A stretch of DNA of 64,000 nucleotides from Panaeolus papilionaceus (lineage: Eukaryota; Basidiomycota; Agaricomycetes; Agaricales), in the NCBI GenBank assembly GCA_015501605.1, contig JADNRZ010000021.1:372001-436000 (forward strand), in the 5' to 3' direction. The notes beneath the pieces are model-generated. The model saw only the letters and a program-made list of their open reading frames with translations, was not told the origin of the DNA and searched no databases. Positions within the stretch are counted from its first letter, which is position 1. Every line of letters starts with the position of its first letter. Positions 17,154 through 35,268 of this stretch are shown piece by piece. The position numbers and the translations under genes were made by a program.

Positions 17154-17159
17154 TTTTCT

Positions 17160-17198
17160 TATGGTGCGCAATTAGCACATTTATTATTTAGGGAAAAC
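17160..17198 (+). repeat. Left TIR of the large element
   Basis: Begins TATGGTGCGCAATTAGCACA and ends TTTAGGGAAAAC; perfect reverse complement of 35,224-35,262. The preceding six bases TTTTCT are the target duplication. Confidence 0.9.
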
Positions 17199-17288
17199 TT
17201 TTACTTACTGTAAGAGACCTTGCAAAATATTTTCAGTAGTCCTACAAAAATAAAAACAAACTGTGAACCTGGTTGACGACTTCCAGAC

Positions 17289-17510
17289 TTTTTATGAGCG
17301 CCTATGATGTTTCTCAAAATCCCTGGAACTTTTTTTCGGGCGCTTACAAGTCGTGAACCATAAGAAAGAGAAATTGAGTGGGCGTCTAAGAAAAAGCGAA
17401 AATATTCTTGAGCATCTATGAAAAAAAAGGAAAATATTTTCAAGCGTCTAAAAAAAAGAAGAGGAAATCTGAGCGCTTAAGTGAAACATCCAGAAAATAT
17501 TTAAGACTCA
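17289..17510 (+). repeat. Left subterminal A-run/GCGCTTA repeats
   Basis: Irregular units combine GAGCGCCTATG, GGGCGCTTACAAG, GGGCGTCTAAG, AAGCGTCTAAAA or GAGCGCTTAAG with a following A-rich run such as AAAAAAAAGGAAAATATTTT, spaced about 35-60 bases. The same kind of unit occurs in opposite orientation inside the right TIR. Subterminal repeats of this sort are often transposase binding sites; that role is inferred. Confidence 0.65.
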
Positions 17511-18163
17511 CTTGATTAGATTATACATTTTTTAACATATTAATGTCGTCTCAAAAAGCCTGAAAACCCGAATATTTCCAGTACAAGTAGCCTGATATAG
17601 GGTGTTGAGCGGAGTTTGAAATACCATCAGGTACTCGGCATTACAAGTCGGCGACATCAGCGGAGCTTCAAATCAATGAAAAAAGGCCGCCCCTAAACAT
17701 GGTGGTGGCGAAATCGTCACACAGGCCTATTGTTAGCCTTCCTTTCTCCCACCAACGTCCCCTATAGATAGCATCAGTGTTCGTAGATAGTAAATTGCCG
17801 GATTGGATAGTAATTAGTAACGATAATTAAGAAGGATGTATAGTAATAATAAACCAGGACCCACAAGAAGAAAGTTCAAACGAGCGAGGGTATCCAATAC
17901 CTCAGCCAATCTAAGTCAAGAACCAATAACTATGCCAGGCCCCCGAAAAAGGAGTTGGCGGGCAATGGTAAGGATGGTCGGGTAGCGGCGTGCCTTCGGA
18001 AAGCCGACACTCACCCTTCCTTGCCAGAGTGAAGAAAGCCCTGAAGGCACAATGCCCGCGCCCAACCCAGAAGAAACACAAGAGATGTCATGACGCAAAG
18101 GTAAAAAGTACACAAACATCACCCAAGACAACTGGATTTCATTGACATGAACATATATTACAG
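17511..18163. other. Left interior of the element, possible first exons of the SPT5-like gene
   Basis: A frame opening MPGPRKRSWRAM near 17,934 followed by GTAAGG, and a basic segment (KKHKRCHDAK) before GTAAAAAG at about 18,101, could be upstream exons. I could not keep a single frame through both junctions, so these are not asserted. Confidence 0.3.
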
Positions 18164-21100
18164 TCTGTATACCTGGATCTACCGATCCAGAAGACGAAGA
18201 TCAAAGCATGAACAACAACGAGGAGGGCGAGGAGGAGGGCGATGATGATCAAAGCATGGAAGAGACGACCGAGGAGGGTAGTAACAATGATCAAGACATG
18301 TACAACGAGGAGGATGGTGAGGAGGATGGCGAGGGTGAGGAGGAGGATGTCAAAGAGACAGGATCGCGTGCAGGTAAGTGTCATGTCAAAGTCTATTATG
18401 CTGCTCAAATACATATCTAACTATCCGGAAGATTGGAACAACGAAGATGATGAAGACGTGGACAGCGAGGACAACAGTGAGGATGAGGAAGCCAATAGCA
18501 AGGACGACGAAAACAGAGTTGAAAACAAGGAGGATCAGAACGGCGAGGACTCCAACGATATCGAAGAAGATGAGGATGATGCGGATGCAGAGGGGCAGGA
18601 TGGTGGGGACGATGAGAACGAAATGAAGGAACAGCAGCACCCTCGGCCGCCGCATACACAGAAACACAGAGGCAAAGAGAAGCATAGAGCCAACATATTC
18701 GTTGACGACAAGGCCAACGGAGGGGAAACATCTGAAGACTCAGATATACATGGTGGCGAAGACTTCACTTTGTTCATCAATGATAGGGAAAACACAGATA
18801 CGGAGAGGTCAAGAGATCCAGGCAGGTCACTCATTATAATATGTCAAATATTCATACTTATATATATGATATACAGTATTCAACTCCGATTGTCTACAGA
18901 GTGGAGATCTTGAAGACCGTCAGTACTACTGGGACGGTCTACTCGAGAGGGCCTACAACCATGCAAAGGATGGAGATCGTTGGCATACTGTACCAATTGG
19001 AGTAGTTTGGCAGTCAGCAGTCAGCAGAGGCCTGGCCGTGCCGAAATCGGTCAGCAGTCAGCAGTCAGAGGGTGCTCTGCCGAAACCATCCACCAAGCCT
19101 GCAAATTCCAACGCCCCCCAAAAAGGTAATTTCAGTCAAATTCGAGAGAATTTCCGCCAAACCCGCCTGTGTCATTGGGCTGGTGCCCTTCAAATTAAAT
19201 TCCTCGGTTGGACACCGTTGCAGAGGCGTTATAGTGCGTTGATGACTATGGGGTGCCCCGATGTCAGCACGAAATGGAGGTGTTGCCGAAACCAAAATTT
19301 CGGCAGAGCGGTCAGCAGTCAGACCCCCTGCCGAACTGGTCCAATTGGTACAGTATTGGGGTCGATCTGACAGCGGATGATAACCAGAACGACGATGATT
19401 ATATGATCACAGCAAATGATCTTCTCTGGGTTGTACCCTGCGCTGTACATCTTGACTTCGTATTTGTTATGATTTTAAATGATTTATCCCGTTGGTTTGT
19501 TGTACAGGCAGGGAGTGAAGAAGACGCTGTGTTTGATATTTTCAATCGCTCATCATCAAACATCACAGGGGCATCAGCAATATTCAACCCGTCGCATCCC
19601 CAACGTATATTCATCGAGGCTGCCAGTGAAAGCATCGCCAGAGCCACCATTGATGGCGTTTCGGGATTATTTCCATCGCAGCTGAAGCTTGTGCCATACT
19701 CTGAACGTCGATGCTGCATGGTGAACTTTCCGAGACATATGCCACTATGGGTCCGGATCCACGACTTTAGGCGCAATCTGGCAGACTTAAATGGGACTGT
19801 CGCCATCGTGGTGCCACTTCTCAACAACATGTACAGCAACCTTGTGGAAATGTGGACTGTCGTCACTGCTTCCAAGGATCCTTATGAAGCATCGGCGCCA
19901 TGGGTTTATGAGCAATTCAAAATCGACGACATCAAATTCAAGATCAATCCGGATGAACTGCCAACAATACGCGACATCCAAAAGTTTGTGGGCTGCGACA
20001 AGATTCAGGAGTACACCCTCAACGTTCTTTTCAAGCGTATTTATTCCGCCAACATTCGTCCAGGAGCTCGTGTCTGCGTCACATCAGGGGAGTTCGTGGG
20101 GTTAACAGGGGAGGTAGTCGGAACGGCTTGTGCGGCTGCCACTGTCCGACTGGAGAATGGCATTGTCGAACCGATCCCTCTCGATATCCTTCACCGCGCC
20201 TTTGTCGTTGGCGACCAGGTTGCTATCGCCACACTACCATGGAGGGGTGTAACTGGCTGGGTGGTGAATGCTGAAGAGCAGCATGTAAGCATTTGGTCCG
20301 ACAAAGATCAAAAAGAGGTACGTGTTTCTCTCACTTTTAATTGAAGAAACCCTCATCGTATTTGTCGCCAGTACCATGTAGCCTCTAACGAGGTAGAATT
20401 CTTCTCGCCGTCATTCCACCAAACGTTTTTGCTACCACCACAAATCAAACGTCCAAATATATCCATGTTTGACGTTTATCAATGTTTCAAAGGGAGAACA
20501 GTCTACATAACGGGGCAACATCCTTTCAAAGGTCAACGGGGTCTTATCAAAGATACGCACCCTGACGGGCGCGTTTGGATTCAAATGGAGTCCATGCTTA
20601 GTGGCAACCAGACCACGATATTCAAGCATACCAAACTCTCTCTCATGTGTGTATCTGTGCTGCCTATGTATTTCCACAACTGAATTTTGGTGTAGTGACA
20701 TCAAGACTGATCGCCATTTACTGCCCTTAAGTGGCAACAATGTTGGAGCCACGCGCAGAGTCATACCTTTTGCCGAACAGAGCATTGCTGCTCATACCTC
20801 TGACACAGCCACCCACTGCGACAGTCTGTTAGAGCAGATTCAAGACCTACCCGTTGTCGACGATACGATCAGCTTTCCTGAATCTGATCCAATCGTACTT
20901 GCACCAAACATGGATCCATACTGGTTGGTTGAAGCCTGCTTTCAGCATCGCATCAAACTTGCACACGTCAATGACCCCAACCACATTGTCCAGCTATTGG
21001 GAAGGGGTTCAGGGCCAGGGTTGGTCGAGGTGCGCGACCACATGAACATGCTTCAGGTAGCATCACACATGTTGACTGCGCTTCCACCACAAAAAAAAGA

Positions 21101-21275
21101 TGATGTTGTTGTCGTGCTTTCGGGGGAACACGTAGGCAAAATGTTCAAGGTGGTTGAGGTTCACGAGAACCACTCACAAGTCAAGAAGCCGGGGAGGGTT
21201 TTACGGAAAAATGAAGTTAATCCGTGTTTCAGTAATGACAATCTAGTACACGCATTTGGACCATTAAATAGATAA
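18164..21275 (+). pseudogene. SPT5-like KOW/NGN transcription-elongation protein, coding exon split by a MITE
   Basis: Acidic Asp/Glu-rich exons (18,164-18,376 and 18,435 on) are followed by SGDLEDRQYYWDGLLERAYN, a linker, then an NGN-like domain (AGSEEDAVFDIFNRSSSN after the intron 19,433-19,507). KOW-like modules follow: RPGARVCVTSGEFVGLTGEV with GDQVAIATLPWRGVTGWVV, GRTVYITGQHPFKGQRGLIK, and C-terminal KDDVVVVLSGEHVGKMFKVV. Further introns are 20,318-20,371 and 20,647-20,695; the stop is at 21,275. SPT5/NusG-type proteins bind RNA polymerase II and aid elongation; shorter divergent paralogues are common in Agaricomycetes. A 366-bp MITE plus TA sits in the exon between GDRWH and IGVDLTADDNQ; removing it restores one frame exactly. 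The junction near 18,824-18,875 does not keep frame in my reading. This copy is probably inactive. Confidence 0.7.
18988..19353. mobile_element. Mariner-like MITE (366 bp) with TA duplication
   Basis: Terminal inverted repeats CTGTACCAATTGGAGTAGTT and, read from the right end, CTGTACCAATTGGACCAGTT continue to GGCAG. TA dinucleotides flank the unit at 18,986-18,987 and 19,354-19,355. Inside are repeats of GGTCAGCAGTCAG and CTGCCGAAA. No transposase gene. It interrupts the SPT5-like reading frame. Its first eight bases CTGTACCA match those of the MITE at 38,665-39,043. Confidence 0.85.
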
Positions 21276-21468
21276 ACAAAACTTCGGTATATTACTCAGG
21301 ATAGCTGTCATTGATATACGTACTTGTAATATTGGTTTCTTGACTTAATTTTGCAGTTCCGGCATCTAATTTTTAATTACAAGAACAGGCAGGCCCAGAG
21401 GCATGCAAGAAGCGCTGAAAATGGAATTGTATCAAGTGAGTCCTGTATCTATGTCTAACGTGCACTAT
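21276..21468. other. Convergent 3' region
   Basis: Short AT-rich interval between the SPT5-like gene (+) and BTB gene 1 (-). Confidence 0.5.
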
Positions 21469-22443
21469 CTAATCAAACTGCGATCTAATTTTGTTGACAG
21501 TGTCATGGTACAAGTCCTCCTCGAAGTCAAACTCGTTATTCTCTCGCAATCTACGCAATGCTTCCTTGCGGCATGCATTAGGCTTGGGCGAGTTGGCAAC
21601 CATGACGGCGTAACACTGGTTCAGGGGTTGGGGCAGGTCTGCGCGGAGAACTGGTTCCATAATGTAATGCCTCCAGTCGTTGCGCCACTTGATGGTGCAC
21701 ATGTGATGGTCAACGCAGGAGTCCATCTTCGGTATATAATCAGGAATCTGGACAATTTGGCGGACGACTTCATTTAGGCGAATCTTCAGCTTCATTATCG
21801 GCTCATATATCGACAGGTTGTCAAATTTCCAGTCTGGCGATGGAAGCTTAACGGCCTCCTCAACGAGTGCCCTCAGTCTGTCCCATCTCCAGTAGCCAGC
21901 CACAAGTTTCAACATAAAGAAAGGGTCCCCAGCGATCTGCGCAAGACCTTGGAAACAAAACTTCTCTGTCTCCTTCATGTCCCACTGGTCCGCAAGAAAA
22001 AGCATCCCAAGAAGATCCCTGAGCGTGTAGTCGTGATCCTGGGGTGGGCTAACCAAAACACAAGTGAGTATTACATCTAACCATCGCGGATATTAAAAAA
22101 CTTACTTGCTTCCGAACCTCAACCAGCGTATGAGGGGCTCAAAGTCATCGTGTTTTATCCCTTCAAGGACAAGCGGCATGTGGTTAGACCCCTCCTCCGC
22201 TGATCCAATGTCCTTTCCATCAGAGAACATGGCTTTAAAGACGGTGGAATAACAAGTCAGGCTGTCTTTGGTGAGCCAGAAACAGGTCCCTTGAACCTGA
22301 TAACGATGTGAGCACTGACCGCCAACTTATAGATCACAGAGGCCAAAAAAAAAACACACCATGACCACGAGTGGGGTTTCAGCTTTTGAGGGCAAGCTGT
22401 CAGTCGCTGTAGGTGACGGAGGGGTGGTCTGAGCTGAAGACAT
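21469..22443 (-). CDS. BTB/POZ-domain protein 1
   Basis: Three exons on the minus strand (22,443-22,360, 22,296-22,106, 22,048-21,469), with introns 63 and 57 nt, keep one frame of 284 aa. The N-terminus is MSSAQTTPPSPTATDSLPSK. The BTB core follows: QVQGTCFWLTKDSLTCYSTV, FKAMFSDGKDIGSAEEGSNH, MPLVLEGIKHDDFEPLIRWL, then TLRDLLGMLFLADQWDMKET. The C-terminal half has CVDHHMCTIKWRNDWRHYIM with a Cys/His cluster, as in many mushroom BTB proteins. BTB folds dimerise and can act as cullin-3 adaptors or chromatin factors; these lineage-expanded fungal proteins have no assigned target. It lies in tandem with BTB gene 2 and inside the large TIR element. Confidence 0.8.
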
Positions 22444-22586
22444 CGATACTGGTAGTGACAAAGAGGAAAAACCTAACGACGTCAGCTTGATTGCAAGTCG
22501 CTGGGGAGTAAGTCAAACTCAATCAACCTATTTATACTGCGAGAAGATAATAACAACCATTATCTACAAGCGAATAAACAATTTAT
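22444..22586. promoter_or_regulatory. Promoter region of BTB gene 1
   Basis: The interval holds the upstream region of BTB 1 and the 3' end of BTB 2. A minus-strand TATA-like GTATAAATAG occurs at about 22,528-22,537, roughly 90 nt before the ATG. Confidence 0.4.
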
Positions 22587-23892
22587 TTAGTTTGGGGCCC
22601 CCTCCTGAATAAGTCTTGAAATTTTCAGCCTTAGCTGCCGCAAAATGGAAGTCTCATTTCCCCAAGCTATAACCCAATCGTCGCATGTCTCCAAATCACT
22701 TCGTAAGTGTTCCTTGCAGCCTGGATTGATAGCGTCACAGTCAGCTAACGCATTCAAGAAGGAATCGCAAGCTTCCGGTGCAGGAACATTACTACAAAGA
22801 AGATCGGTTGTAACGTGTACCTGCCAAAGGTGGTCGCAGTTGATTTCGCAATCGTCATGCCTGTGGGTAACATCGCCTACATCCGGAATTGTAGGGAAAT
22901 GCCCTGCAATTGCCGCTCTTTGGACCATAATCGTGTCTCGTGTCAACGCTAGTGCCCGATATACTTTGAAGCTCAGCAAGCCAAGATCGGGTTGTGATTT
23001 GTTTAGCGGGGTGAAGACGAGCGCATTTATGGCACCATGAAGTAACGACTCGTCTCTGAACTTCAGGGCGGCATAGAGTCGGAAAGCAGGGCTCTGGGCA
23101 GGTATGTCCAGTTTCCGGACAAGCTGTTGTTCAGCTGACTTAAGATCCCATCTTTGAGCCAGCTCAACACATCGCATGATCAAGTCATTAGGATAGCTCT
23201 CGTCCTTTAATGGAGATTCATTCCACTCTCTATCAGCATTTGGTGAGTTAATTGTGAAAGTTTGTGCACGGAAAGCTAACCGATGTATTTTGATGACCTC
23301 TATGAAGAGCGCCATCTGCTCCTTGTTGACCCCATCTACTTTAATGGGAAAGGATTGCAAGACGCCAGGTTTTGACGGTTCAGGTCCGGGTCCTCTAGAT
23401 TTAGCGTCCTGGTAGTCCTGGAGATCCTTGTACAAAGATGCCATGTAGGCTGACTCGTCGACGTAACGGCTCACATCGACACAGAATACACTATTGTCAA
23501 CCTAATATTGCTAGGTGAGAGACGTTTTTTCACAACACATTGATATCAACTGACTTCAAACCAGCTGTACAACGGCATGCACGAATACAAGTTGTGCCAT
23601 TGTAACGACTGCACCTGGGCTGGCAGTGGCTGCTCTGGCTCCAAGTCCATATGATGGTCATCAACAGACACATGTAAAGGAGCTATGGGCTTGTCCGTTG
23701 TCTTTCTGATCGGCAGTCGTTGATTGGGTTCAAAATCCATAGGGGTGTCATCGACAGACAACTTATGGAAGCCACAGGTTTGTTCATCATTGTCGTGGTA
23801 GGGGAGCCAATCTGATTGTCAGAGTTAGGATTCTCAGCAGTAGGAGGAGTGCTGTTAGGTTGAACGTCGCCATCTAAAAGCATGCTATCCAC
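22587..23892 (-). CDS. BTB/POZ-domain protein 2 (possible frameshift near the N-terminus)
   Basis: The C-terminal exon (23,501-22,587) is joined through a 53-nt intron (23,554-23,502) to an upstream exon ending NLYSCMPLYSWFE, so the BTB start reads SWFEVDNSVFCVDVSRYVDE. It continues ASLYKDLQDYQDAKS, EQMALFIEVIKIHRLAFRAQ, YPNDLIMRCVELAQRWDLKS and a C-terminal Cys/His part (HDDCEINCDHLWQVHVTTDL). Before the BTB is an imperfect internal repeat, SVDDTPMDFEPNQRLP and SVDDHHMDLEPEQPLP. The upstream Met (MDSMLLDGDVQPNSTP at 23,892) is in another frame from about 23,765, so either a small intron or a 1-base indel separates them; the Met before SVDD at 23,761 is an alternative start. Parallel and adjacent to BTB 1, probably a tandem duplicate. 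Confidence 0.7.
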
Positions 23893-24170
23893 AATGGGAG
23901 ATGATGCAGGGGAATGGATGGGCTTGGATTATCCATATCAAGTGTTTAGATTAGTCCTCGGTTCTTTCAGCCTAGATGTTTTATAAGTACGAGACAGCAT
24001 TTCGCCGATATTATGCCATTAACTAACAATTTTCCGTTGATAACAGTCTATATTTATATCCCTTGTTTGTTGGTTAATGGCAGATCTGATGCGATAGTCT
24101 TTATCCGGAGGTGAGTTCTGAATCGTTTATAATTGGTATTGCTACTGAAAACCTCCATTACTTTCATAGG

Positions 24171-26275
24171 ATGGTCTTTCCCTCTCTTCCTGACTGTGAA
24201 ACGGCGCCGAATTGGCCTGCCTCTATCATCATTGCTACTGGACAAATATACAATGCATACTCGTCGACTACCCGCTTAGTAGAATCTGGAAATTATAATA
24301 GTCATCAGGTCGCTGCCCACCTGCATGTATTCCATACCCAGGTTCAGCCTCTCATCGAATCGATAAGGAACCAGGAGCCTCTTCTAGAGGATTGGATCTC
24401 CGATGTATGTGAGATCATGCTTGATTTGCATGAAGAGCTTCAAAAGATCAAGAAGGATGCCCAGTTGGTGTCGCACTATCTATTGTTTACTGGATCTTTT
24501 GAAGTAATATTTCGATGAAATAGATCACAAGGGACATCAGCAATACCCGTCAATCCCTATGTTCTTGTTTATACGGGACAGCCAGGCAGGCCCGCCAAGC
24601 GCATCAGTCAAGATGCACTCCAATGGGCATCAAGGTGCAGCCTCAAACTCAAGCAGATCGCAGCCCTATTTGGTGTCCACCAGAATCACCTTTGTCTTCA
24701 GATGCAGGCTGCAGGTTTATCAACATCACGATATACTGATATTGATGATGAAGAACTCAATGATATTGTTCGCGACGAGATGTCAAATCGACCAGATACA
24801 GGTGTTGCATACTTGACAGGTTATCTACGGGCCCACCACAAACTTCGCATCCAACATTCCAGAATCCGAACAGCCGTGCAACAGGTGGATGCTGTAGGAG
24901 CAACCCTTCGTAAACAAGCAGCGGCCAAGAAGCCACGTGGCAACTATCACGTCTCAGGACCGCATGCTCTTTGGCATATAGACAGCCACCATAAGTTAAT
25001 CAAATGGGGGATAGTCATACATGGTGTAATCAACGGTTATTCAAGAAAGGTGTGTTAGATTATATTATATTAAACATTCCCCTTATTTTGACACAATTAC
25101 CTACAGATAACGGGGCTTAGGGCCAGCACATCTAATTCAGCAAACACTGTCATTGACATGTTTATTGACTCTATCTTAGAGCACGGTATTCCATCTCGCG
25201 TGCGTGGCGATCGTGGAGGAGAGAACCGTGATGTGTCCATTGCGATGATCCGATTTCGTGGACGCAATCGCGGAAGTTTTCTTTGGGGCCCCAGTGTCCA
25301 CAACACGCCAATTGAGAGACTCTGGGTAGAGCTAGGGCGGAGGTTCTGTCGGGCTTGGAGAGTTTTCTTCCTTCGTTTGGCACGCCTGCATAATCTTGTC
25401 CAGGACAACCCCGTTCACCGATGGTTGTTGCAATATCTCTTTCTTGAAATGATAAACAAGGACTGCAAGTCCTTTGTAGAGGAATGGAATGCACATCCCA
25501 TGCGTAATCGAAACAACAAAAGTCCCAACGTAATTAATTTCACTTCGTTTATTTATGATAATTAATTTCAAGAACGCTAACCATGTTTTACAATATACAG
25601 GATCTTGAAATTGAAGGGATGATCAAATATGGCGTATACGACAGCACACTCAGCTCATTTACGTTCACCGACGAATGTGAAGGTCTTCGGGAAGAAGACA
25701 TTGAAATGTACTATCAATACCCTAGGGAGAGAGCTGGTAGTGGAGACGAAGCAGATTCCAACAGCGAAGATGCAGAGAGTATGGATCTTGATGCAAGTGA
25801 TTGCGGGTCTGATGATGGTGAGGGGAGTTCATTGGAAGGCAGCGACAACAACATGTATAGTGACAGTGAAGAGGGGGAGGAGGGGGATGTAGACGTAAAA
25901 ATAGATGAAGTCGATTTTAGCGAGGATGAGGCGGAGGATGATGACTTGCACGAGGTAGATCCTGCCGCTGATGTCGACCCCAACATACATCACGAGGCAG
26001 TCGATGTTCCCGACGGAAGGTGTCCATTCACCAAGGACCAATTGGCCACTTTTAAGATATTTATTGAAGAGATTCACCAGGAAGGGCAGCTACCTCATGG
26101 ATATGGTGTTCAGCCAGATGAATGGGAAGACGGAGTGTATTCCGAAGTTGAAGAGTTGCCAATTGGACACGCTCAACGAACCAAATTGATCCATCTTCCT
26201 AACTGTGTGTGGCAGGCAAGATCTGTATTATGGGCGCAGGCCCTGTGTCTTCTGGAAACATCGGAGGTGTTATAG
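24171..26275 (+). CDS. DDE/rve-like integrase core protein of the large element
   Basis: Four exons: 24,171-24,469, 24,524-25,049, 25,107-25,529 and 25,601-26,275, about 640 aa. Donor 1 (GTCGCA) is weak and chosen to keep frame. An N-terminal helical region is followed by a GQPGRPAKRISQDALQWASR segment and a helix-turn-helix (KLKQIAALFGVHQNHLCLQM). The catalytic core has its first Asp in LWHIDSHHKLIKWG, its second Asp in RVRGDRGGEN and its Glu in HNTPIERLW; EEWNAHPMRN closes the core. The C-terminal exon is strongly acidic (SEDAESMDLDASDCGSDDGE). It matches a family of uncharacterised eukaryotic proteins labelled integrase core domain. It would cut and join DNA in the nucleus; all three acidic residues are present. 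A 5'-UTR intron (24,111-24,169) probably precedes the ATG. It is the only recombinase in the TIR unit. Confidence 0.75.
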
Positions 26276-26393
26276 CACTTGTAGTTATTGTATATATAGA
26301 GTATGAATGTAGGGCACATTCTTTCAGCGCTATTTCCCCCTAGTGATAGTGCCCATCCATTCTTTATTCTACATCTCTATTTCTAAATCCACT
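26276..26393. promoter_or_regulatory. Promoter interval of the 26.4-kb gene
   Basis: Short spacer between two same-strand genes; TATATATAG near 26,292-26,300 lies about 95 bases before the ATG. Confidence 0.35.
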
Positions 26394-27840
26394 ATGACCA
26401 GCCATCACAAGCGCAAGGCAGCAGAACCGGACTCGTCTATTGAGATCATCCCTCCTCCTTCCACCCAGCCCGGGTCCCCCCCACCCAAGAGAGCTCGTTA
26501 CAACACCAGCACCAGCACCTCTGCCACCAAAGCCAAGGACGACGACGACAGCAATAGCAACAGCAGCAATCAGTCACTCGCTAAATCCAGTACCAGTGCA
26601 GGCGCCGCCAATCCCGCTTTTGCATTCAAAGGTTTTTTATTGTCACAGATCAAGTCTGATAAAGGTGCCGCCCGAAAGGAGACCAACAGCCAAGGCGGTA
26701 AGGGACCTTCAGCAAGGGCAGCAGCGTCCACCTCGGCTTCCTCTCGCACTAAGAAGAAGGCCCAAACCGACGTTATCTGGCGACCACGTACAGTGGACTC
26801 TTTCCGAGCACGGATTGTGATGATCATACCCTATGGTGTTAGATCGGTATGTCACCCAGACTCTGCACCATTTTCTGATTAATAGCTCTTATATTTCAGG
26901 CCCCTTTATCCAATCGTAACAAGTACAACTTGCCGTTCAACATTCGCAAGAACCCCTTTTGGAACAAAGAGATGGGTTTTCTTGCATCTAAGAGGTTTGC
27001 AGTTCGTGCTCCGGATTCAGAGGGATTTGTATTCAATGTCGACTGGTCTGAGGATCGTTTCTTCGAGGAGATCAGCTCGCTTCTCCCCAATGCAGTTGAG
27101 AAGATGCTTGAGAGCCACCACAAAGAGAAGAATGGTCCCCGTGTCTGGCTTCCCTGTGTCAAAGCTGGTGGTAAGTTCTTTGTGCATCCAGCAGATGGGC
27201 CGTATTCTGCTGCTGCAATGAGGGATATCTGCGGTCTGGCTGGCAATACCTGGCGTTGTGACGACAACAATGGGATCTTCATTGGTAAGTCATCGCTCCA
27301 ATTTTATTTATACTATTTACTATTTGTTATTCATTTCATTATATAGTGTCAACGGCTAAGATCTCCTTTGGTGAAGACGACGTGGATTCAGATAAAGAAA
27401 ATCAAGACGAAGATGTCCTTATGGCCAACGCATCAGCAAGCCACAGGCCAGCCAAAGCATTGCCAGCATCTGATTCATACAAGCCAACCTGTGCAGCAGC
27501 CCAAAAATCAAAGAAGAAATTGGAGTATATCGATGGTGAGTACTGTGTTTTGAATCACTTCCCATTTCAACAACACTGAAACATAGCAGTGACCGATGAC
27601 GAGTCTGATGGGGTTTCCACCAGCTCACACAGTGGAGACACGGAGCCAGCTGCAAGCCACACAGGCACTCCTGCTGTTGATCTTGACCAGTCCTTCTCAG
27701 ATTTTACTATTGGTTACTCACGCCGCCCGTCTGCTCTCTCCAGTTCCTCGCGCTGCCCGTCTGCCCTTGCTGGTTCCTCCCACTTTGGCTGCAAGCCTGA
27801 CACCCCTGCCTATTCTGTTTATTGCCCTTCATTGCCTTAA
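26394..27840 (+). CDS. Probable nuclear protein of the large element, function unknown
   Basis: Four exons (26,394-26,846, 26,900-27,284, 27,347-27,535, 27,590-27,840) join in frame to about 425 aa. The low-complexity N-terminus MTSHHKRKAAEPDSSIEIIP continues to PPPKRARYNTSTSTS, a likely nuclear localisation signal. A conserved-looking central part follows, with WRPRTVDSFRARIVMIIPYG, NLPFNIRKNPFWNKEMGFLA, FVFNVDWSEDRFFEEISSLL, VWLPCVKAGGKFFVHPADGP and DICGLAGNTWRC. An acidic, Ser-rich tail closes it. I recognise no catalytic motif. It could be a DNA- or chromatin-associated accessory protein of the transposon; that is inference from its location directly downstream of the integrase. Clean splicing supports a functional frame. 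Confidence 0.7.
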
Positions 27841-28507
27841 TTTCACTTCACGTCATTCTTCTTGTTGCTGATTTCATCATGTCCGAGTATATATTAATGT
27901 CACTACCTAATGTGCTCTTGTCTATACCTTTTTCCGTAATACCTTCCACCCCTTCATCCTCTCCTTTATCTCGTTTACCCACCCTCTCCTCTCCTTTAAC
28001 ATGTCCATCCATTTCTTCTTTATCTTGCCCCTTCCACGCTCTTCATCTCACCCTTTCTACCCTCTCTTTTTCCTTGCCCTTCCCCTCGCTCCTGTACCTT
28101 GCCCTCTACACTATCTGCTATATCTCCTACTCTCCCTCCCTTATCTCCCTTATCTCCGACTCCTTAGATCTCTCTTATCTTGTCTAGTTGTTATCTTGTC
28201 GCTCTCAATGGTCCTGCTTGCTAGTTATCGCTCTTTGGCTTTAGGTAGACTACTTTAGTTAGAGACATGTTCACTACATATCACAAATTGGGACTGTTGC
28301 TCAGCATGCTAAACTTGGAAGCCACATGTCGCAATCTTTGGTGAGTTATATGATGGAGATGTAATTATCCCATCACTCCATCTTATCTTGCTTATCTTTT
28401 ATCTGTATCTCTTATCTCCGTCTCTTAATCTAGGCCTTATGCAGGCTCCAGTGCGTGACAGTACTCAATATTCAGCCTCCGACAAGCGTGCCATATTGCC
28501 TTATTGC
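27841..28507. other. Pyrimidine-rich non-coding stretch
   Basis: Dense CTCTCC/TTATCTCC runs on the plus strand; no gene supported. It ends at the ATTGC target site of the LTR element (28,503-28,507). Confidence 0.55.
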
Positions 28508-28912
28508 TGTCAGGGGATCTCCTGCTACCTCCTATTCCTTTCCTTATTACCATCTCTCTGTCTCTCCTTTCTCCATTTCCTTTGCTCTATCTCATTATCT
28601 GGACATATCATGGACTCATAGATATTATATTACACTCTCCTTTAGTTGCCATTCATTCATTATTTAGTTGTTGCCACTGTTCCATAGTCATTCCTTTGTG
28701 TTTCCCTTTGTTTGTTTCCAAAGGCATTGTTTGGCATCAAGGCTGATGCCAATGCCAGCTCATCACTTAAATAGCTGTTTCACCTGGGTTTGATCCTTTA
28801 CCTCTTTCTCTTTGGATCTCCCCCAGGTGAGCCTACTTCCTGTATTTATGTAGAGCTGATATATATCTTTGGATCTCCCCCAGGACTTGTGTGTGTCTGA
28901 GGTGCCCTTACA
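28508..28912 (+). repeat. 5' LTR
   Basis: Begins TGTCAGGGGATC and ends GAGGTGCCCTTACA, 405 bp. It contains TAAATA at 28,768-28,773 and the putative transcript start near 28,800. Confidence 0.95.
28768..28809 (+). promoter_or_regulatory. LTR promoter: TATA-like box and probable transcript start
   Basis: TAAATA at 28,768-28,773 lies 27 bases before ACCTCTTTCT (28,800-28,809). That 10-mer is the exact reverse complement of AGAAAGAGGT located 2 bases after the LTR. In Tf1/sushi-type elements the mRNA 5' end pairs with the PBS to prime reverse transcription; the spacing fits a transcript start at about 28,800. Confidence 0.6.
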
Positions 28913-28914
28913 GT

Positions 28915-28924
28915 AGAAAGAGGT
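28915..28924 (+). promoter_or_regulatory. Putative self-priming primer-binding site
   Basis: AGAAAGAGGT, complementary to the predicted first bases of the element transcript. I see no tRNA-type PBS starting TGG directly at the LTR edge. Confidence 0.55.
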
Positions 28925-29042
28925 CACCTTGGAGACTGAGACTGCATACAGTCTGTTACATCCTCTGTTCTGCTTCTTCTGTTCAGCTGCATTATAGACT
29001 CTGTGCTTTCTCCCTCTCCTCTCTTCTCCCTGTCTGGCAACC

Positions 29043-30374
29043 ATGGATCTCCATACTTCACCACCTCCAGCTGCTTCTGTCTCTCTGTCTCAGTTGCCTT
29101 CCCTGGAAGACCAGGTATCCTCCATGCTTGCTCAGCAGGAATCCCAACAGGTAGCTATCTCCCACTTGAGGTCTTCTGTTCTTTCCTTGCTTCATTATTT
29201 TTCTTCTACCTTTAATCCTCCTTCTTCCCTTTCCCTTTCTCTTTCTTCTTCCTCCCCTTCTTCCTCTCCTGTTTCTTCTACTTTTCCCCCACTCCCTTCC
29301 CACTCTGTTGGACAGCTGACAGATGGGATACTACACTCTTTAAACCATGGAACTGTAGATAGAAACTTTTCCCCTTCTTCTTCTTTCCCTTTACCTAGTG
29401 TAAACATGGAACAATCTTCACCTTCTCCTCACCCTCTTTCTTCTTCTCATTTTATTAGTGTACCTATGGAACATTCTTCTTCTTCTTCTTCTTCTTCTAG
29501 TAGTAGTCTTCCTCTTCCCCCCACTTCTATTCGGTCATCCAATAGAGTGGATCCTCCCCTCCCCACTGTCTCTTCTGGTTGCCCCAGTGGAATAGTGTCT
29601 TCCCCTCTCCTCACTGCCTCTTCTGGTTATCCTAGTGGAGTAGTGCATCCCTCTGCCCCTTCTTCTCATCGTCTTGGGACTCCTTTGATGATTGCAGAAA
29701 AGGTTAGGCCAGCTCCTCCTCCCCGGTATGATGGTGATCGTCTCAAGGGCAAAGCCTTCTACAACTCTCTCATGGGATACTTTAGACTTCGTCCAGATCT
29801 CTTTCCTGACGAGTCTACCATGATTAGTTGGGCCCTCACGTTCATGTCTGCTGGTCGAGCTGCTCTATGGTCCTGCAGGATCTTTGAGCTCATTGAGGAA
29901 GGTTCCTCCCCTTACGCAACTTGGGATCACTTTGCTGAAGACTTTCGCAAAGAGTTCTTCCCCTTGCGTGAGCAGGAAACTGCTGCCCTCATCTTGGAAG
30001 GTACCTTCTACTTCCAAGGGGATCGTTCTGTTGACGATTATGTCGACTCCTTCCGTGACCTTGTTGCTGAAGCTGGCTACTCTGACCCCTCCTACATCGT
30101 GGTCAAGTTCCGTCGTGGCCTCCACCCCTCCATCACTGATCATCTCAGTAAGCAGGTAGCTTCACATCCAGCTCATAACGATCCCTCTGGCTGGTATGAA
30201 TTGGCCCGCCTTGTTGCTCTCAACTTGGCTGCTAATGACACCTTCCATCCGCAGCCTCCTCCTCCTGTGCCTAGCCCACTCTCTTCTCTTCCTCCTTCCT
30301 TCTCACATTTCCTTGACCCCTCCCCTGGTCCTTTGTCTATTCGCACCACTCATGCCCCTTACGAAAGCCTGTGA
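29043..30374 (+). CDS. gag: Gag polyprotein of the Ty3/Gypsy element
   Basis: 443 aa from ATG 29,043. A long Ser/Pro-rich N-terminus with a start MDLHTSPPPAASVSLSQLPS and a run of Ser residues near 29,479-29,510 is followed by the capsid-like Retrotrans_gag region (APPPRYDGDRLKGKAFYNSL, WALTFMSAGRAALW, FAEDFRKEFFPLREQETAAL, VDDYVDSFRDLVAEAGYSDP). It forms the virus-like particle that houses reverse transcription. A TGA at 30,372-30,374 stops it, but the frame continues open to 30,632 after one stop codon, so the original gag may have been longer. I see no CCHC zinc knuckle. Confidence 0.85.
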   Translation: MDLHTSPPPAASVSLSQLPSLEDQVSSMLAQQESQQVAISHLRSSVLSLLHYFSSTFNPPSSLSLSLSSSSPSSSPVSSTFPPLPSHSVGQLTDGILHSLNHGTVDRNFSPSSSFPLPSVNMEQSSPSPHPLSSSHFISVPMEHSSSSSSSSSSSLPLPPTSIRSSNRVDPPLPTVSSGCPSGIVSSPLLTASSGYPSGVVHPSAPSSHRLGTPLMIAEKVRPAPPPRYDGDRLKGKAFYNSLMGYFRLRPDLFPDESTMISWALTFMSAGRAALWSCRIFELIEEGSSPYATWDHFAEDFRKEFFPLREQETAALILEGTFYFQGDRSVDDYVDSFRDLVAEAGYSDPSYIVVKFRRGLHPSITDHLSKQVASHPAHNDPSGWYELARLVALNLAANDTFHPQPPPPVPSPLSSLPPSFSHFLDPSPGPLSIRTTHAPYESL

Positions 30375-30559
30375 CAAGTGAAGTCTCTGTGCAAACGCCT
30401 GCACAAACTCCACCCTGTCCAAAGTCATCCTGACTCTCGTAATCGGTATGCTCCTCTGGTTGATGAGACTCCATCTCTCCCAGATGAAGACAAGGTTCCC
30501 TCCTCTCCATCCTCCCTCCATGATCCTTCTGCTCCGCCCCGCCTACCTCGTCGCTCCAA

Positions 30560-33500
30560 ATGGGAATGTCGTCGCCTTCCATCCTCGTGCACCATCTCTT
30601 CTCTTGCACCTGGACCTACTCCCTTCACCTGAAGGTTGAGATAGAACCACCGACTCCCATGAGGCTCGATCTGTCAAGGCCTTGCTCGACACTGGCGCTA
30701 CTGGTCTGTTCATCGATCGAGAGTACGTCAAGTCCAACCGAATTGCCACCAGGAAGCTCAGCCGCCCCATCCCTGTTCGTAACGTGGATGGAACGCTCAA
30801 CGAGTCTGGTTCAATTACTGAGGTGGTTGACTTGATCCTCCGGTACAACGGCCACACAGAACGTGCACTCTTCTGTGTCACGGGCTTAGGGAAGCAGAAG
30901 CTGATCATTGGATACACTTGGTTCAGGGATCACAATCCTGAAGTCAATTGGGAAACTGGAGAAGTCAAGATGTCTCGTTGCAAGCCTAGCAGTCGATGCT
31001 TTGGTTGCAAGAAGGAACTCAATGAGGAAAAGAAGGCTGCTCGTAAGGAAGAAGCCAAGGTGAATGCCTGCCGCTCTGGTCCTGCCCCCTCTCTCACCCC
31101 TGAAGAGTCTTCCCCTGAAGATTCTGATGATCTCAAGTCCTCTGATCTGCCATTTGATCTTGAGGAAGGTGATCGTGTCTGGGTTTCTGGCTTACTCCCC
31201 GAGGAAGCTGAAGAGCATATCAAGCTACTTCAACCATCAGTCAACGCCTGGCTGAAGGTTTCTTGCGTAACTCTGCTCCTCAACCAGAACAGACCACTCT
31301 CCCTTCCTCACCTCATGGTCCAGTCCCTGACTATCAGAGTCTCTTCCATCGTGTCTTCTCTGAAGCTGAGTTTCTTAAGCTTCCTGAGAGAAGACCTTGG
31401 GATCATGCAATTGAGCTCATTCCTGGAGCCCAACCCAAGGGATGCAAGGTTTACCCATTAAACCCTGCAGAACGTGAAGAGGCTGAGCGCTTCCTTGCTG
31501 AGAACGAGGCTCAGGGAAAGATTCGCCGCTCCAAGTCCCCCATGGCATCACCAGTCTTCTTTGTGAAGAAAAAGGATGGCTCCCTTCGTCTGGTCCAGGA
31601 CTATCGCATGCTCAACGATATGACTGTGAAGAACAAGTACCCTCTCCCTCTCATCTCTGACCTTATCAACCAACTTCGTGGTGCGCGCTACTTCACCAAG
31701 CTTGACATTCGTTGGGGTTTCAACAATGTCCGCATCAAAGAAGGAGATGAGTGGAAGGCTGCTTTTCGCACTCACAGAGGTCTCTTCGAACCTCTTGTCA
31801 TGTTCTTTGGTCTCACCAACAGTCCTGCCACCTTCCAAACCATGATGAACGAGATCTTCCAAGACATGATCTCTGAAGGTGTGGTTGTGGTATACCTGGA
31901 TGACATCCTGATCTTCACCAAGGATATTCCTGAGCATCGAGAGGTCACTCATAGGGTCCTGAAGCGTCTAGAGGAACATGGTCTCTGCCTCCGCCTGGAG
32001 AAATGCGAATTTGAGAAGACACGCATTGAGTACCTTGGGCTTATTGTTGCTGAGAACCGAGTCGAGATGGATCCTGTCAAAGTTGCTGGAGTTGCTCAAT
32101 GGCCCACCCCCACCAATAGGAAAGAAGTCCAATCTTTCCTGGGTTTTGCCAACTTCTATCGACGGTTCATCAAGGACTTCTCTCATCATGCACGTCCCCT
32201 CTTTGACCTTACCAAGAGCTCCACTGAGTTTTCCTGGTCTCCTGCTGCCGCTACTGCCTTCCAGTCCATCAAGGATGCTGTCACCTCTTCCCCTGTCCTT
32301 GCTGCTCCCAATGATGATCTCCCTTTCCGGCTTGAAGCTGACTCTTCAGACTTCGCCACTGGTGCTGTACTCTCCCAGCAGTCTCCAGAAGATGGAAAGT
32401 GGCATCCCATTGCTTTCTTCTCCAAGTCACTCTCTCCTGTCGAAAGGAACTATGAGATTCATGACAAGGAAATGCTTGCAATCATTCGAGCCTTGCAGGA
32501 ATGGAGACACTTCCTTGAGGGTGCCCGCCACAAGTTTGAGATCTGGACTGACCACAAGAACTTGGAGTACTTCATGTCATCTCAGAACCTCAACCACAGG
32601 CAAGCCTGCTGGTCTCTCACTCTGGCACGCTTTGACTTTGTCATGCAGCACAAGGCAGGAGCTACTATGGGAAAAGCAGATGCCCTCTCACGTCGGTCTG
32701 ACCATGGTTCTAGTGAACGTGACAACCAGAACATCACCCTCCTCACCCCAGGGATGTTTGCAGTTGTGCACTAGAAGGTCTGGAATTTGTTGGACAGGAA
32801 CGCTCTCTGGTTCATGAGATCCGTCGACATTCCAAGGAGGCCTCTGATCTTGAGGACACTGTGGCCAAGGCAGTCAAGGCACTCAGAAAGACTGGATCTC
32901 AGTCTCTTCGCTCCTCAGAGTGGGATGAAGCTGATGGTCTTATCTACTTCTGTGGAAAGCTCTATGTTCCACCAGGTGGTGATCTTCGTCGTCGCATTGT
33001 GGCTCTCTGTCATGACTCCACTCTTGCTGGACACCCTGGACGTTGGAAGACCTTGGAGCTTGTGTCTAGGAACTACTGGTGGCCACGCATGTCTAAGTTC
33101 ATTGGACTCTACACCAGCACCTGTGACATGTGTCTTAGGACCAAGACCATCAGGCAACGACCCCTTGGAGAGCTTGAGCCCCTTGCAGTTCCTGACCGCC
33201 GTTGGGACCATATCAGTGTGGACTTCATTGTCGAGCTTCCTGAGTCCAATGGTTATGATGCCATCATGGTTGTTGTTGACTCCCTTTCCAAACGCGCCCA
33301 CTTCACTGCTACCACTACCACTGTCTCTGCCCTAGGCACTGCCCGTATGTATCGTGACCATATCTGGAAACTCCATGGCCTTCCATCCAAGGTAGTCTCT
33401 GATCGCGGTCCACAGTTCATTGCAGAGTTCACTACTGAACTCTACAGGCTGCTTGGGATTGAGCCAGCTCGTAGCACTGCCTATCACCCTCAAACTGATG

Positions 33501-34339
33501 GGCAGACTGAGCGTGTCAACCAGGAGTTGGAACAATACCTCAGGCTCTACATCTCTGAGCGACAGGACGACTGGTACGACATCCTTTCCATGGCTGAGTT
33601 TGCCTACAACAACCATGTCCACTCCTCCACCCAGCAGACTCCCTTCCTTCTAGACTCTGGTCAACATCCTCGCATGGGCTTTGAACCTCTTCCTCCCTCC
33701 CGGATGGAAACTGTGAATGAGTTCACTGATAGGATGAAGACTGCTCTTGAGGAAGCTCGTGCTGCCTTAGCAGCTGCTAAGGAGGACATGGCTAGGTACT
33801 ACAACCGGCGTCGCACCAAGGCTCCTGAGATCAAGCCTGGAGATCGTGTCTACCTTGATGCTTCAGACATCCAAACCACTCGGCCATCCAAGAAGCTCTC
33901 CCACAAGCGAGTTGGTCCTTACCCAGTCATTTCTAGTGTTGGAAAGAATGCCTACCGTCTTCAGCTTCCTAAATCCCTCTCCCGCATCCATCCAGTCTTC
34001 CATGTTGTCAGACTCACTCCTGCTCCTTATGACCCCATCTCTGGTCGAAGAGCCAAGCTACCCCCACCTCCTGTGCTTGTTGACAATGTTGAAGAGTTTG
34101 TTGTGGAGAAGATTTTGAACAGCAAGTTCATCAGAGGCAAACTCCGATACCTGATCAAATGGGAAGGATACGATGCTGGTTGGAATTCTTGGGAACCAGC
34201 TGGCGATGTCCATGCTCCTGACCTCATCAGGGACTTCTATGCAGAGAATCCTAAGGCTCCAAAGGTTATCAGGACCACTTATACTCACATTCCTTATAAA
34301 CGGACTGGACTTCATGCTTCGAGGGCGAAGCAATCCTAG
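30560..34339 (+). pseudogene. pol: Pol polyprotein (PR-RT-RH-INT-chromodomain), frameshifted
   Basis: The protease active site is in LLDTGATGLFIDREYVKSNR (about 30,682). Reverse transcriptase at 31,263-32,100 shows PVFFVKKKDGSLRLVQDYRM and the catalytic YLDDILIF (about 31,892). RNase H shows LEADSSDFATGAVLS and EIWTDHKNLEYF. Integrase has the HHCC zinc region (CHDSTLAGHPG to CDMCLR), the DDE residues in VDFIVELP, SDRGPQF and QTERVNQELEQY, and a C-terminal chromodomain (KLRYLIKWEGYDAGWNSWEP). The frame changes near 30,648, near 31,220 and near 32,763, each consistent with a 1-2 base indel in a formerly continuous frame. Pol copies the RNA and inserts the cDNA in the nucleus; chromodomain elements target chromatin marks. 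The frameshifts imply this copy needs help, unless they are sequencing errors. Confidence 0.9.
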
Positions 34340-34349
34340 AGGGGGGTAA
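34338..34349 (+). promoter_or_regulatory. Polypurine tract
   Basis: AGAGGGGGGTAA directly precedes the 3' LTR, the standard site for plus-strand priming. Confidence 0.85.
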
Positions 34350-34754
34350 TGTCAGGGGATCTCCTGCTACCTCCTATTCCTTTCCTTATTACCATCTCTC
34401 TGTCTCTCCTTTCTCCATTTCCTTTGCTCTATCTCATTATCTGGACATATCATGGACTCATAGATATTATATTACACTCTCCTTTAGTTGCCATTCATTC
34501 ATTATTTAGTTGTTGCCACTGTTCCATAGTCATTCCTTTGTGTTTCCCTTTGTTTGTTTCCAAAGGCATTGTTTGGCATCAAGGCTGATGCCAATGCCAG
34601 CTCATCACTTAAATAGCTGTTTCACCTGGGTTTGATCCTTTACCTCTTTCTCTTTGGATCTCCCCCAGGTGAGCCTACTTCCTGTATTTATGTAGAGCTG
34701 ATATATATCTTTGGATCTCCCCCAGGACTTGTGTGTGTCTGAGGTGCCCTTACA
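34350..34754 (+). repeat. 3' LTR
   Basis: 405 bp, beginning TGTCAGGGGATC and ending CCTTACA; I found no difference from the 5' LTR. ATTGC follows as the target duplication. Confidence 0.95.
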
Positions 34755-34759
34755 ATTGC

Positions 34760-35135
34760 CGCTTCTGCCGCTTTTAAGCCCCGACAGCATCTTGTTTTTG
34801 AATGTTTTTAATACAACTTTTCTTGGTCTTTACTTTTTTTTGGATATTTAGAGCCTTTCCGCAAAACTAGAAAATATATCAGTCTTTGTTCTTTAGCGCC
34901 CATGTGTTTTTCTATTTTTTGTAGAATTTACAAGGTTTTCTGGGATATAATTGTTAGCGCCCAATAAAGTTTTCTTTTTTTCGCGTTTTTGTTTTAACCG
35001 CGCAAAAAGTTTTTCTTTTTTTTGGGGTTTGTGCTTTAAGCGCACAAAAAGTTTTCCTTTTTTTCACGTTTTTGGTTTAAGCGCACAGAAAGGTTTTTTT
35101 TTTTGGTTTCTGTGTGGTAGGCGCCCGTAATAGTC
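34760..35135 (-). repeat. Right subterminal A-run/GCGCTTA repeats
   Basis: On the plus strand, words such as TTAGCGCCCA, TTTAAGCGCACAAAAAG and AAGCGCACAGAAAGG alternate with T-runs (CTTTTTTTCGCG, CTTTTTTTCACG). They are the inverted counterpart of 17,289-17,510. No gene here. Confidence 0.65.
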
Positions 35136-35223
35136 TCTGAGGTCGACAAAAGTTGTTTGGAAAAAAGAAAACAAATGTGTACATTTTCAAAATTGTTACA
35201 AGGTATAGTATCACGTTCAAAAT

Positions 35224-35262
35224 GTTTTCCCTAAATAATAAATGTGCTAATTGCGCACCATA
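35224..35262 (-). repeat. Right TIR of the large element
   Basis: Reads GTTTTCCCTAAATAATAAAT and on to GCGCACCATA; perfect reverse complement of 17,160-17,198, followed by TTTTCT (35,263-35,268). Confidence 0.9.
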
Positions 35263-35268
35263 TTTTCT

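Follow-up and report, generated by a model that had tools for sequence, protein, structure and literature searches.

The 64-kb stretch of Panaeolus papilionaceus DNA described here (the window) lies on contig C14 (962,734 bp) of a 50.85-Mb genome and contains a DNA transposon at positions 17160-35262, which measures 18.1 kb with its nested insertions included. The element is bounded by terminal inverted repeats (TIRs) and a target-site duplication (TSD), and it carries a DDE integrase gene alongside an SPT5-like gene and three further conserved genes. Two insertions are nested in it: a sequence resembling a miniature inverted-repeat transposable element (MITE) and a long terminal repeat (LTR) retrotransposon. 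The features are as follows.

17154-17159, no strand: left TSD, TTTTCT
17160-17202, plus strand: left TIR (TATGG..., 43 bp, one mismatch), with the same TIR at other loci
18208-21272, plus strand: SPT5-like gene (acidic N-terminus, NGN, KOW), annotated BJ165DRAFT_1408550 (P0002), interrupted by the MITE-like insertion
about 19337-20341 and about 20697-21272, plus strand: SPT5-like exons, NGN-KOW and C-terminal respectively
18985-19356, no strand: MITE-like insertion of 372 bp with inverted ends, in the SPT5-like gene
21469-22440, minus strand: conserved gene B1 (earlier label BTB, unsupported)
22587-23707, minus strand: conserved gene B2 (earlier label BTB, unsupported)
24171-26272, plus strand: DDE integrase/transposase in several exons (Pfam rva_4, PF24764)
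26394-27513, plus strand: conserved gene (earlier label "nuclear protein") without a convincing named domain
28508-34754, plus strand: nested LTR retrotransposon with identical 405-bp LTRs and ATTGC ends
35220-35262, minus strand: right TIR (...CCATA), inverted match to the left TIR
35263-35268, no strand: right TSD, TTTTCT

This anatomy is close to certain. The two TIRs are 98% complementary, with a single mismatch in 43 bp, and their outer 39 bp are perfect, as a sequence-only reading of this DNA had reported; under a simple random model, the number of perfect 39-bp inverted repeats expected in 64 kb is about 1e-13. The 6-bp direct repeat noted in that reading is exact on both flanks, and the two insertions it described were both located. 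The LTR retrotransposon, with two identical LTRs and a 5-bp end repeat, is young and not part of the transposon proper, while the MITE-like insertion has short matches at other places in the genome. Removing both leaves about 11.5 kb, in agreement with the earlier estimate, and the full form of the element is a five-gene unit of about 11 kb bounded by TIRs. As a separate observation, the retrotransposon has a chromodomain-like C-terminus by eye, and up to 99-100% identical counterparts of its open reading frames (ORFs) occur in the C24 and C13 stretches.

Copies and mobility

The element is repeated in the genome. A search with the initial 26 TIR bases, tolerating up to 3 mismatches, gives 22 forward and 15 reverse matches, and a degenerate core gives 79 forward and 74 reverse matches; the reversed control gives 0. 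ORF comparisons among five copies bounded by TIRs at both ends (C14, C24, C31 plus two from C45) show an identical gene order, namely SPT5-like (+), B1 (-), B2 (-), integrase (+) and the downstream gene (+), so that the co-occurrence between TIRs proposed from the window is borne out. The arrangement persists even where copies have diverged. Short TIR elements without an integrase are also present, as expected for non-autonomous relatives. Because the other copies were found by a pattern starting with TATGG, they provide no independent test of the ends themselves.

Both flanks were read for 16 end pairs (6 large, 10 short), a subset of the TIR pairs found. An exact 6-bp TSD flanks 7 of the 16, comprising 4 of the 6 large pairs (C14, TTTTCT; C24, GGCGTT; C45:1873013-1891664, TACCGA; inner C23, AAATTA) and 3 of the 10 short ones (C3, C45:2106852 and C9). 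Direct repeats of 7-8 bp in place of 6 occur at three short pairs, the MITE copies C12, C36 and C6, and six pairs have none: the large C31 and C45:2383606-2394425 copies and the short C7, C43, 1.57-kb C34 and outer C23 MITE pairs. The flanks of the C45:2383606-2394425 copy form a 1,880-bp inverted duplication that is 99.8% identical, either a palindromic rearrangement or an assembly artefact.

The best single proof of movement is a paralogous empty site. A 10.8-kb copy on C23, with the TSD AAATTA, is inserted within a 671-bp MITE that has different TIRs. Joining its flanks with a single AAATTA restores 671 bp, which align to the uninterrupted C7 MITE with 652 of 673 columns identical when the latter is read in reverse (633 of 678 when read forward, the MITE being nearly palindromic). 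The empty site belongs to the C23 copy, not to the window copy. The element is mobile as one block, with TIRs at its ends and TSDs beside them, and the second copies, the empty site and the integrase-bearing TIR pairs whose absence the sequence-only reading had named as fatal to its proposal are all present in this genome.

Integrase and superfamily assignment

The integrase-core gene recognised earlier proves to be of the rve-type DDE class. Two window exons match rva_4 with E values of 4.4e-13 and 6.3e-39, and a spliced model of the C24 copy matches with 1.9e-58. Residues D249, D306 and E341 (P0008 numbering) are the same in all 17 integrases aligned and, judged from motif and spacing, are the putative catalytic residues. 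The ratio of nonsynonymous to synonymous divergence (dN/dS) is 0.09-0.11. A protein search for relatives returned 27 matches, 5 of them from Panaeolus, with others in Agrocybe, Gymnopilus, Pleurotus, Tetrapyrgos, Favolaschia, Leucocoprinus, Mycena, Psilocybe and Rhizophagus, and one in a record named Salix.

These properties resemble the IS3EU/GingerRoot group (Repbase; PMC10045372, PMC12730594), which shares TAYGG..CCRTA ends, TIRs longer than 30 bp, a 6-bp TSD and a DDE transposase with the element, and includes fungal members with accessory genes. Fungal IS3EU elements are given these ends, TIRs and TSDs by Kojima (PMC12730594), and IS3EU in general is characterised, in another account (Kojima, PMC10045372), by TA..TA ends and a first catalytic D located 100-300 residues in. 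The window copy has TATGG...CCATA at both ends, directly abutting the TSD; its TIRs extend over 43 bp with one mismatch; the TSD is exactly 6 bp in 7 of the 16 end pairs read; and the first D is residue 249. The element very probably belongs to the IS3EU superfamily on the basis of this agreement.

A Polinton-like or other giant element is scarcely credible: a 6-bp TSD and an rve-type integrase are shared with Polintons (PMC10045372), but the TATGG..CCATA ends fit IS3EU, the copies compared hold five conserved genes, and Pfam scans covering 10 ORFs of the window and 4 spliced models found no protein-primed polymerase B, packaging ATPase or capsid domain, in keeping with the earlier remark that no Polinton genes are visible. 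A Starship was likewise set aside because of the TIRs and the DDE integrase, which argue against such an element, although no search aimed at a tyrosine recombinase was made.

The suggestion that the element type is new does not hold, as its ends, TSD and integrase fit the known IS3EU group, which carries accessory genes in fungi. What appears new is the Spt5 cargo. According to PMC12730594, fungal TET+ IS3EU elements carry TET/JBP dioxygenase genes between the transposase and an alpha-kinase, whereas the Panaeolus element carries an Spt5 homologue, B1, B2 and a further gene. The terms "Spt5", "KOW" and "BTB" have 0 occurrences in the main text of that paper, and no report of a transposon-borne Spt5 was found in the literature searched, which covers part of the matching literature.

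The Spt5 homologue and its neighbours

The SPT5-like KOW gene reported in the window encodes what its sequence identifies as a genuine Spt5 homologue under purifying selection. Pfam scores the Spt5-NGN domain above its threshold in P0003, P0004, P0007 and the model of the C31 copy, by a clear margin in full-length relatives, and only narrowly so in the window exon (22.9 bits against 22.4). KOW models are above the cut-off in P0003 and P0007 and below it in P0004 and C31. A profile of five SPT5-like proteins, three from Panaeolus cyanescens and two from P. papilionaceus, finds 8qsz (E 7.4e-31, a whole-chain value that includes a biased acidic stretch) and 5oik (E 1.1e-27) as its best PDB matches, both named Spt5. 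The match is collinear, running through the acidic N-terminus, NGN and KOW domains in order, and single stretches against 8qsz reach 3.5e-15 (acidic region plus NGN) and 1.1e-10 (KOW). We take the 8qsz chain to be S. pombe Spt5, 5oik to be the human protein and 5xon to be that of K. phaffii.

The genome also encodes a canonical Spt5 on C2 (E 4.3e-86 to 8qsz), and the element SPT5-like proteins, those of P. cyanescens included, form one clade (100/100). Glu256 in the strand YIEA is invariant in all five aligned proteins; the matching yeast residue contacts Spt4. By eye, the C-terminal repeat region (CTR) of canonical Spt5 is missing from P0003, P0004 and P0007, which end after a KOW-like segment, and the full-length P. 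cyanescens models end just past that segment. For the exons alone, dN/dS is 0.16 (C14-C24), 0.22 (C14-C31) and 0.24 (C24-C31), with upper bootstrap limits of at most 0.34; these are the three pairs with synonymous divergence (dS) below 1, seven further pairs being saturated or nearly so.

Linkage between the two genes was also tallied across the genome. There are at least 18 PF24764 (rva_4) integrase-core loci, and 13 of 18 have an SPT5-like gene upstream in the same orientation, with C20 as a weak 14th (27% identity). The distance is 5 to 25 kb, larger where nested insertions intervene. This tally leaves out six matches of 32-47 residues that hit only query residues 1-50, which are MITE sequence (C34:222921, C9:759053, C38:67991, C23:1962449, C19:145465 and C2:1082798). 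It also excludes C45:1861591, where the match lies 13.5 kb away on the wrong side and belongs to a neighbouring copy, assigns the short exon match C24:373118 to the C24 copy, and counts two C27 pieces as one locus. SPT5-like loci without a nearby integrase match are C64, C49 and C27, the last two at contig ends. B2 is found on the opposite strand at 16 of the 18 integrase loci, and all 34 B2 matches sit at those 16.

Two loci show variant compositions. The copy at C45:1830695-1840006, whose ends are TATGGCACGCC, matches the integrase and B2 and has no SPT5-like match. At C20:474669-482307, a divergent integrase (about 40-46% identical) lies about 7 kb from a divergent Spt5-like sequence (about 21-27%), with no B2 match and, in one test, no TIRs. 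This is possibly an older lineage of a similar element; its branch in the Spt5 tree is long, and no claim is drawn from its position.

Protein searches of P. cyanescens return four SPT5-like and four integrase homologues. Two pairs have neighbouring locus tags: CVT24_008268 (SPT5-like) and CVT24_008269 (integrase), both on a 24,750-bp contig, and CVT24_008497 (SPT5-like) and CVT24_008496 (integrase) on a 10,626-bp contig. The remaining two of each are unpaired on contigs of 4.7 to 15.6 kb. NGN-KOW and integrase trees of seven copies show no conflict and share the clade C14+(C24+C31). Synonymous divergence between C24 and C31 is uneven (0.25 for SPT5 exons, 0.63 for the integrase and 1.05 for B1), which suggests exchange between copies.

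The other three genes are also conserved, with dN/dS of 0.19-0.31 for B1, B2 and the downstream gene (pairs with dS below 1.3) and 0-2 stops per aligned stretch, reflecting introns or damage. The identification of B1 and B2 as BTB genes is not supported: the genes exist, yet Pfam detects no BTB domain in the window ORFs, the spliced C24 models or 5 members of each gene's alignment, and their profiles match nothing in the PDB below E 0.4. A very diverged BTB fold is possible. One member of the B2 alignment has a weak match to USP8_interact (E 0.0032). The downstream gene, formerly called a nuclear protein, is real and conserved, while that name lacks a convincing domain behind it; the P. cyanescens integrase model P0009 runs on into sequence resembling this gene.

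Proposed role of the Spt5 cargo

Spt5 rides on RNA polymerase and keeps the polymerase moving. The best explanation overall, which we consider likely, is an IS3EU transposon with a five-gene unit whose Spt5 homologue acts as an element-specific elongation factor. The integrase would cut at the TIRs and join with a 6-bp stagger, while the NGN domain of the Spt5 homologue would bind RNA polymerase II (Pol II), together with host Spt4, on element transcripts. The homologue would then carry the polymerase through the element genes in repressive chromatin; alternatively, it could displace a host Spt5 that feeds co-transcriptional silencing. Taken on its own, the proposal that the cargo is an element-specific elongation or anti-silencing factor has a little less than an even chance of being right; the sequence-only reading's speculation that such cargo could aid expression from silent chromatin thereby stands as the leading hypothesis.

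A second Spt5-like lineage bears on this proposal. A search with one member identifies 17 loci, and the two members included in the tree fall apart from the element clade. The four best loci each have a Plavaka transposase on the same strand.

C45:1899302-1904219, same strand: Plavaka transposase and Spt5-like gene (C45:1903053), gap 2750 bp
C14:535972-540816, same strand: Plavaka transposase and Spt5-like gene (C14:535972), gap 2737 bp
C14:67399-72025, same strand: Plavaka transposase and Spt5-like gene (C14:67399), gap 2539 bp
C4:1642716-1647343, same strand: Plavaka transposase and Spt5-like gene (C4:1646258), gap 2540 bp

A Plavaka match lies within 5 kb of 4 of the 17 loci and within 10 kb of 6, the other 11 being farther away. 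With 112 Plavaka match rows merged into 62 loci, 25 of them on the contigs concerned, a simple binomial gives chance probabilities of 7e-5 (5 kb) and 3e-6 (10 kb), in a setting where copies are not independent. The four loci appear to form two families, each of two copies, whose transposase and Spt5-like gene travel together. The Plavaka-linked pair compared has a dN/dS of 0.25, indicating purifying selection, and a Thr-Pro-rich stretch seen by eye after the gene may encode the tail of its protein. Because 4 of the 17 loci lie 2.5-2.8 kb from Plavaka transposases, two unrelated transposon superfamilies, IS3EU and Plavaka, may carry Spt5 paralogues. Separately, the member at C67:1742655-1743575 has a KDZ transposase match 5.0 kb away and a Plavaka match at 6.5 kb; the KDZ matches nearest to the lineage are this one and one about 7 kb away on C26, and no inference is drawn from them.

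Among other roles for the protein, a decoy is unlikely, though it fares best. A dominant-negative Spt5 without a CTR would compete with host Spt5 for Spt4 and Pol II and so weaken co-transcriptional silencing. The full-length P. cyanescens models, which by eye have no CTR, are consistent with a decoy, and specialised Spt5 paralogues elsewhere act in silencing or DNA elimination. The S. pombe data point the other way. The C-terminal domain (CTD) of S. pombe Spt5 restricts heterochromatin, and its truncation enhanced heterochromatin independent of RNA interference, the opposite of what the element needs (PMC10659198). The Thr-Pro-rich stretch downstream of the Plavaka-linked gene, maybe its tail, also argues against a protein that lacks this region.

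Several observations weigh against an element-specific elongation factor. Besides the compositional bias in the whole-chain Spt5 match and the two large copies among six that lack a TSD, the SPT5-like gene of the window copy is broken by the 372-bp insertion, and several matches in other copies hold stops, which are introns or damage. Four of the 18 integrase loci have no nearby SPT5-like gene: C45:1835133 and C45:1843463, which are nearly identical to each other, C45:1861591, which has decayed, and C13, whose sequence up to the contig start is taken up by an LTR element. Two protein searches, each scoring about 8000 candidates, returned no SPT5-like homologue outside Panaeolus, which is weak evidence of absence because they failed to return even canonical Spt5. 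The cargo may be a Panaeolus-lineage feature, and it is probably not essential for such elements generally, because the searches found SPT5-like homologues in no genus but Panaeolus (two species), while other Agaricales do have related integrases.

The broken window gene, the four integrase loci without an SPT5-like gene and the restriction of homologues to Panaeolus would also fit passive capture, in which a host gene hitch-hikes without any role in the life cycle of the element. Such capture is improbable nonetheless. Diverged copies remain under purifying selection (dN/dS 0.16-0.24), the SPT5-like tree does not conflict with the integrase tree, position and orientation are kept across copies with the adjacency found also in P. 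cyanescens, and the second lineage beside Plavaka is selected as well (0.25). Still less probable is a targeting factor, by which the Spt5 homologue would tether the integrase complex to transcribed chromatin and steer insertion, in the manner of host factors for LTR integrases; that the two genes stay together and that Spt5 generally travels with polymerase would agree with it.

An element-specific elongation factor finds parallels in other systems. According to PMC7819879, the bacterial NusG paralogue RfaH relieves Rho silencing of long foreign operons, and its relative ActX is plasmid-encoded with a function said to be unknown. These factors resemble the Panaeolus protein as paralogues of the universal NusG/Spt5 factor on plasmids or in long foreign operons, while the Panaeolus protein has a eukaryotic Pol II Spt5 architecture and is not known to have an element-specific recruitment site. 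Specialised eukaryotic Spt5 paralogues tied to transposon-related transcription are likewise described for plant KTF1/SPT5L and Paramecium Spt5m (PMC8934623). Those are host genes for silencing or DNA elimination, whereas the Panaeolus gene is transposon-encoded.

A further parallel concerns TET/JBP genes, which several unrelated fungal superfamilies (Kyakuja, Plavaka, IS3EU, hAT and others) carry, mostly with undisrupted coding regions (PMC12730594). There, as here, one candidate anti-silencing family spans unrelated superfamilies; the shared cargo here is an elongation factor homologue, within IS3EU and beside Plavaka. Tentatively, and with somewhat less assurance than for the role itself, IS3EU and Plavaka may each have acquired their own copy of the Pol II factor Spt5, kept by selection and dedicated to elongation or to counteracting silencing, analogous to RfaH and parallel to TET/JBP.

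If this is true, transcription elongation would be a front in the conflict between eukaryotic genomes and mobile DNA, beside DNA and histone marks and comparable to the bacterial Rho/NusG/RfaH system. The element proteins, which apparently have no CTR, would also offer naturally occurring Spt5 variants that could tell which parts of Spt5 take Pol II through silenced chromatin. Collectively, the findings suggest that the accessory gene types shared among fungal transposon superfamilies are not limited to TET/JBP.

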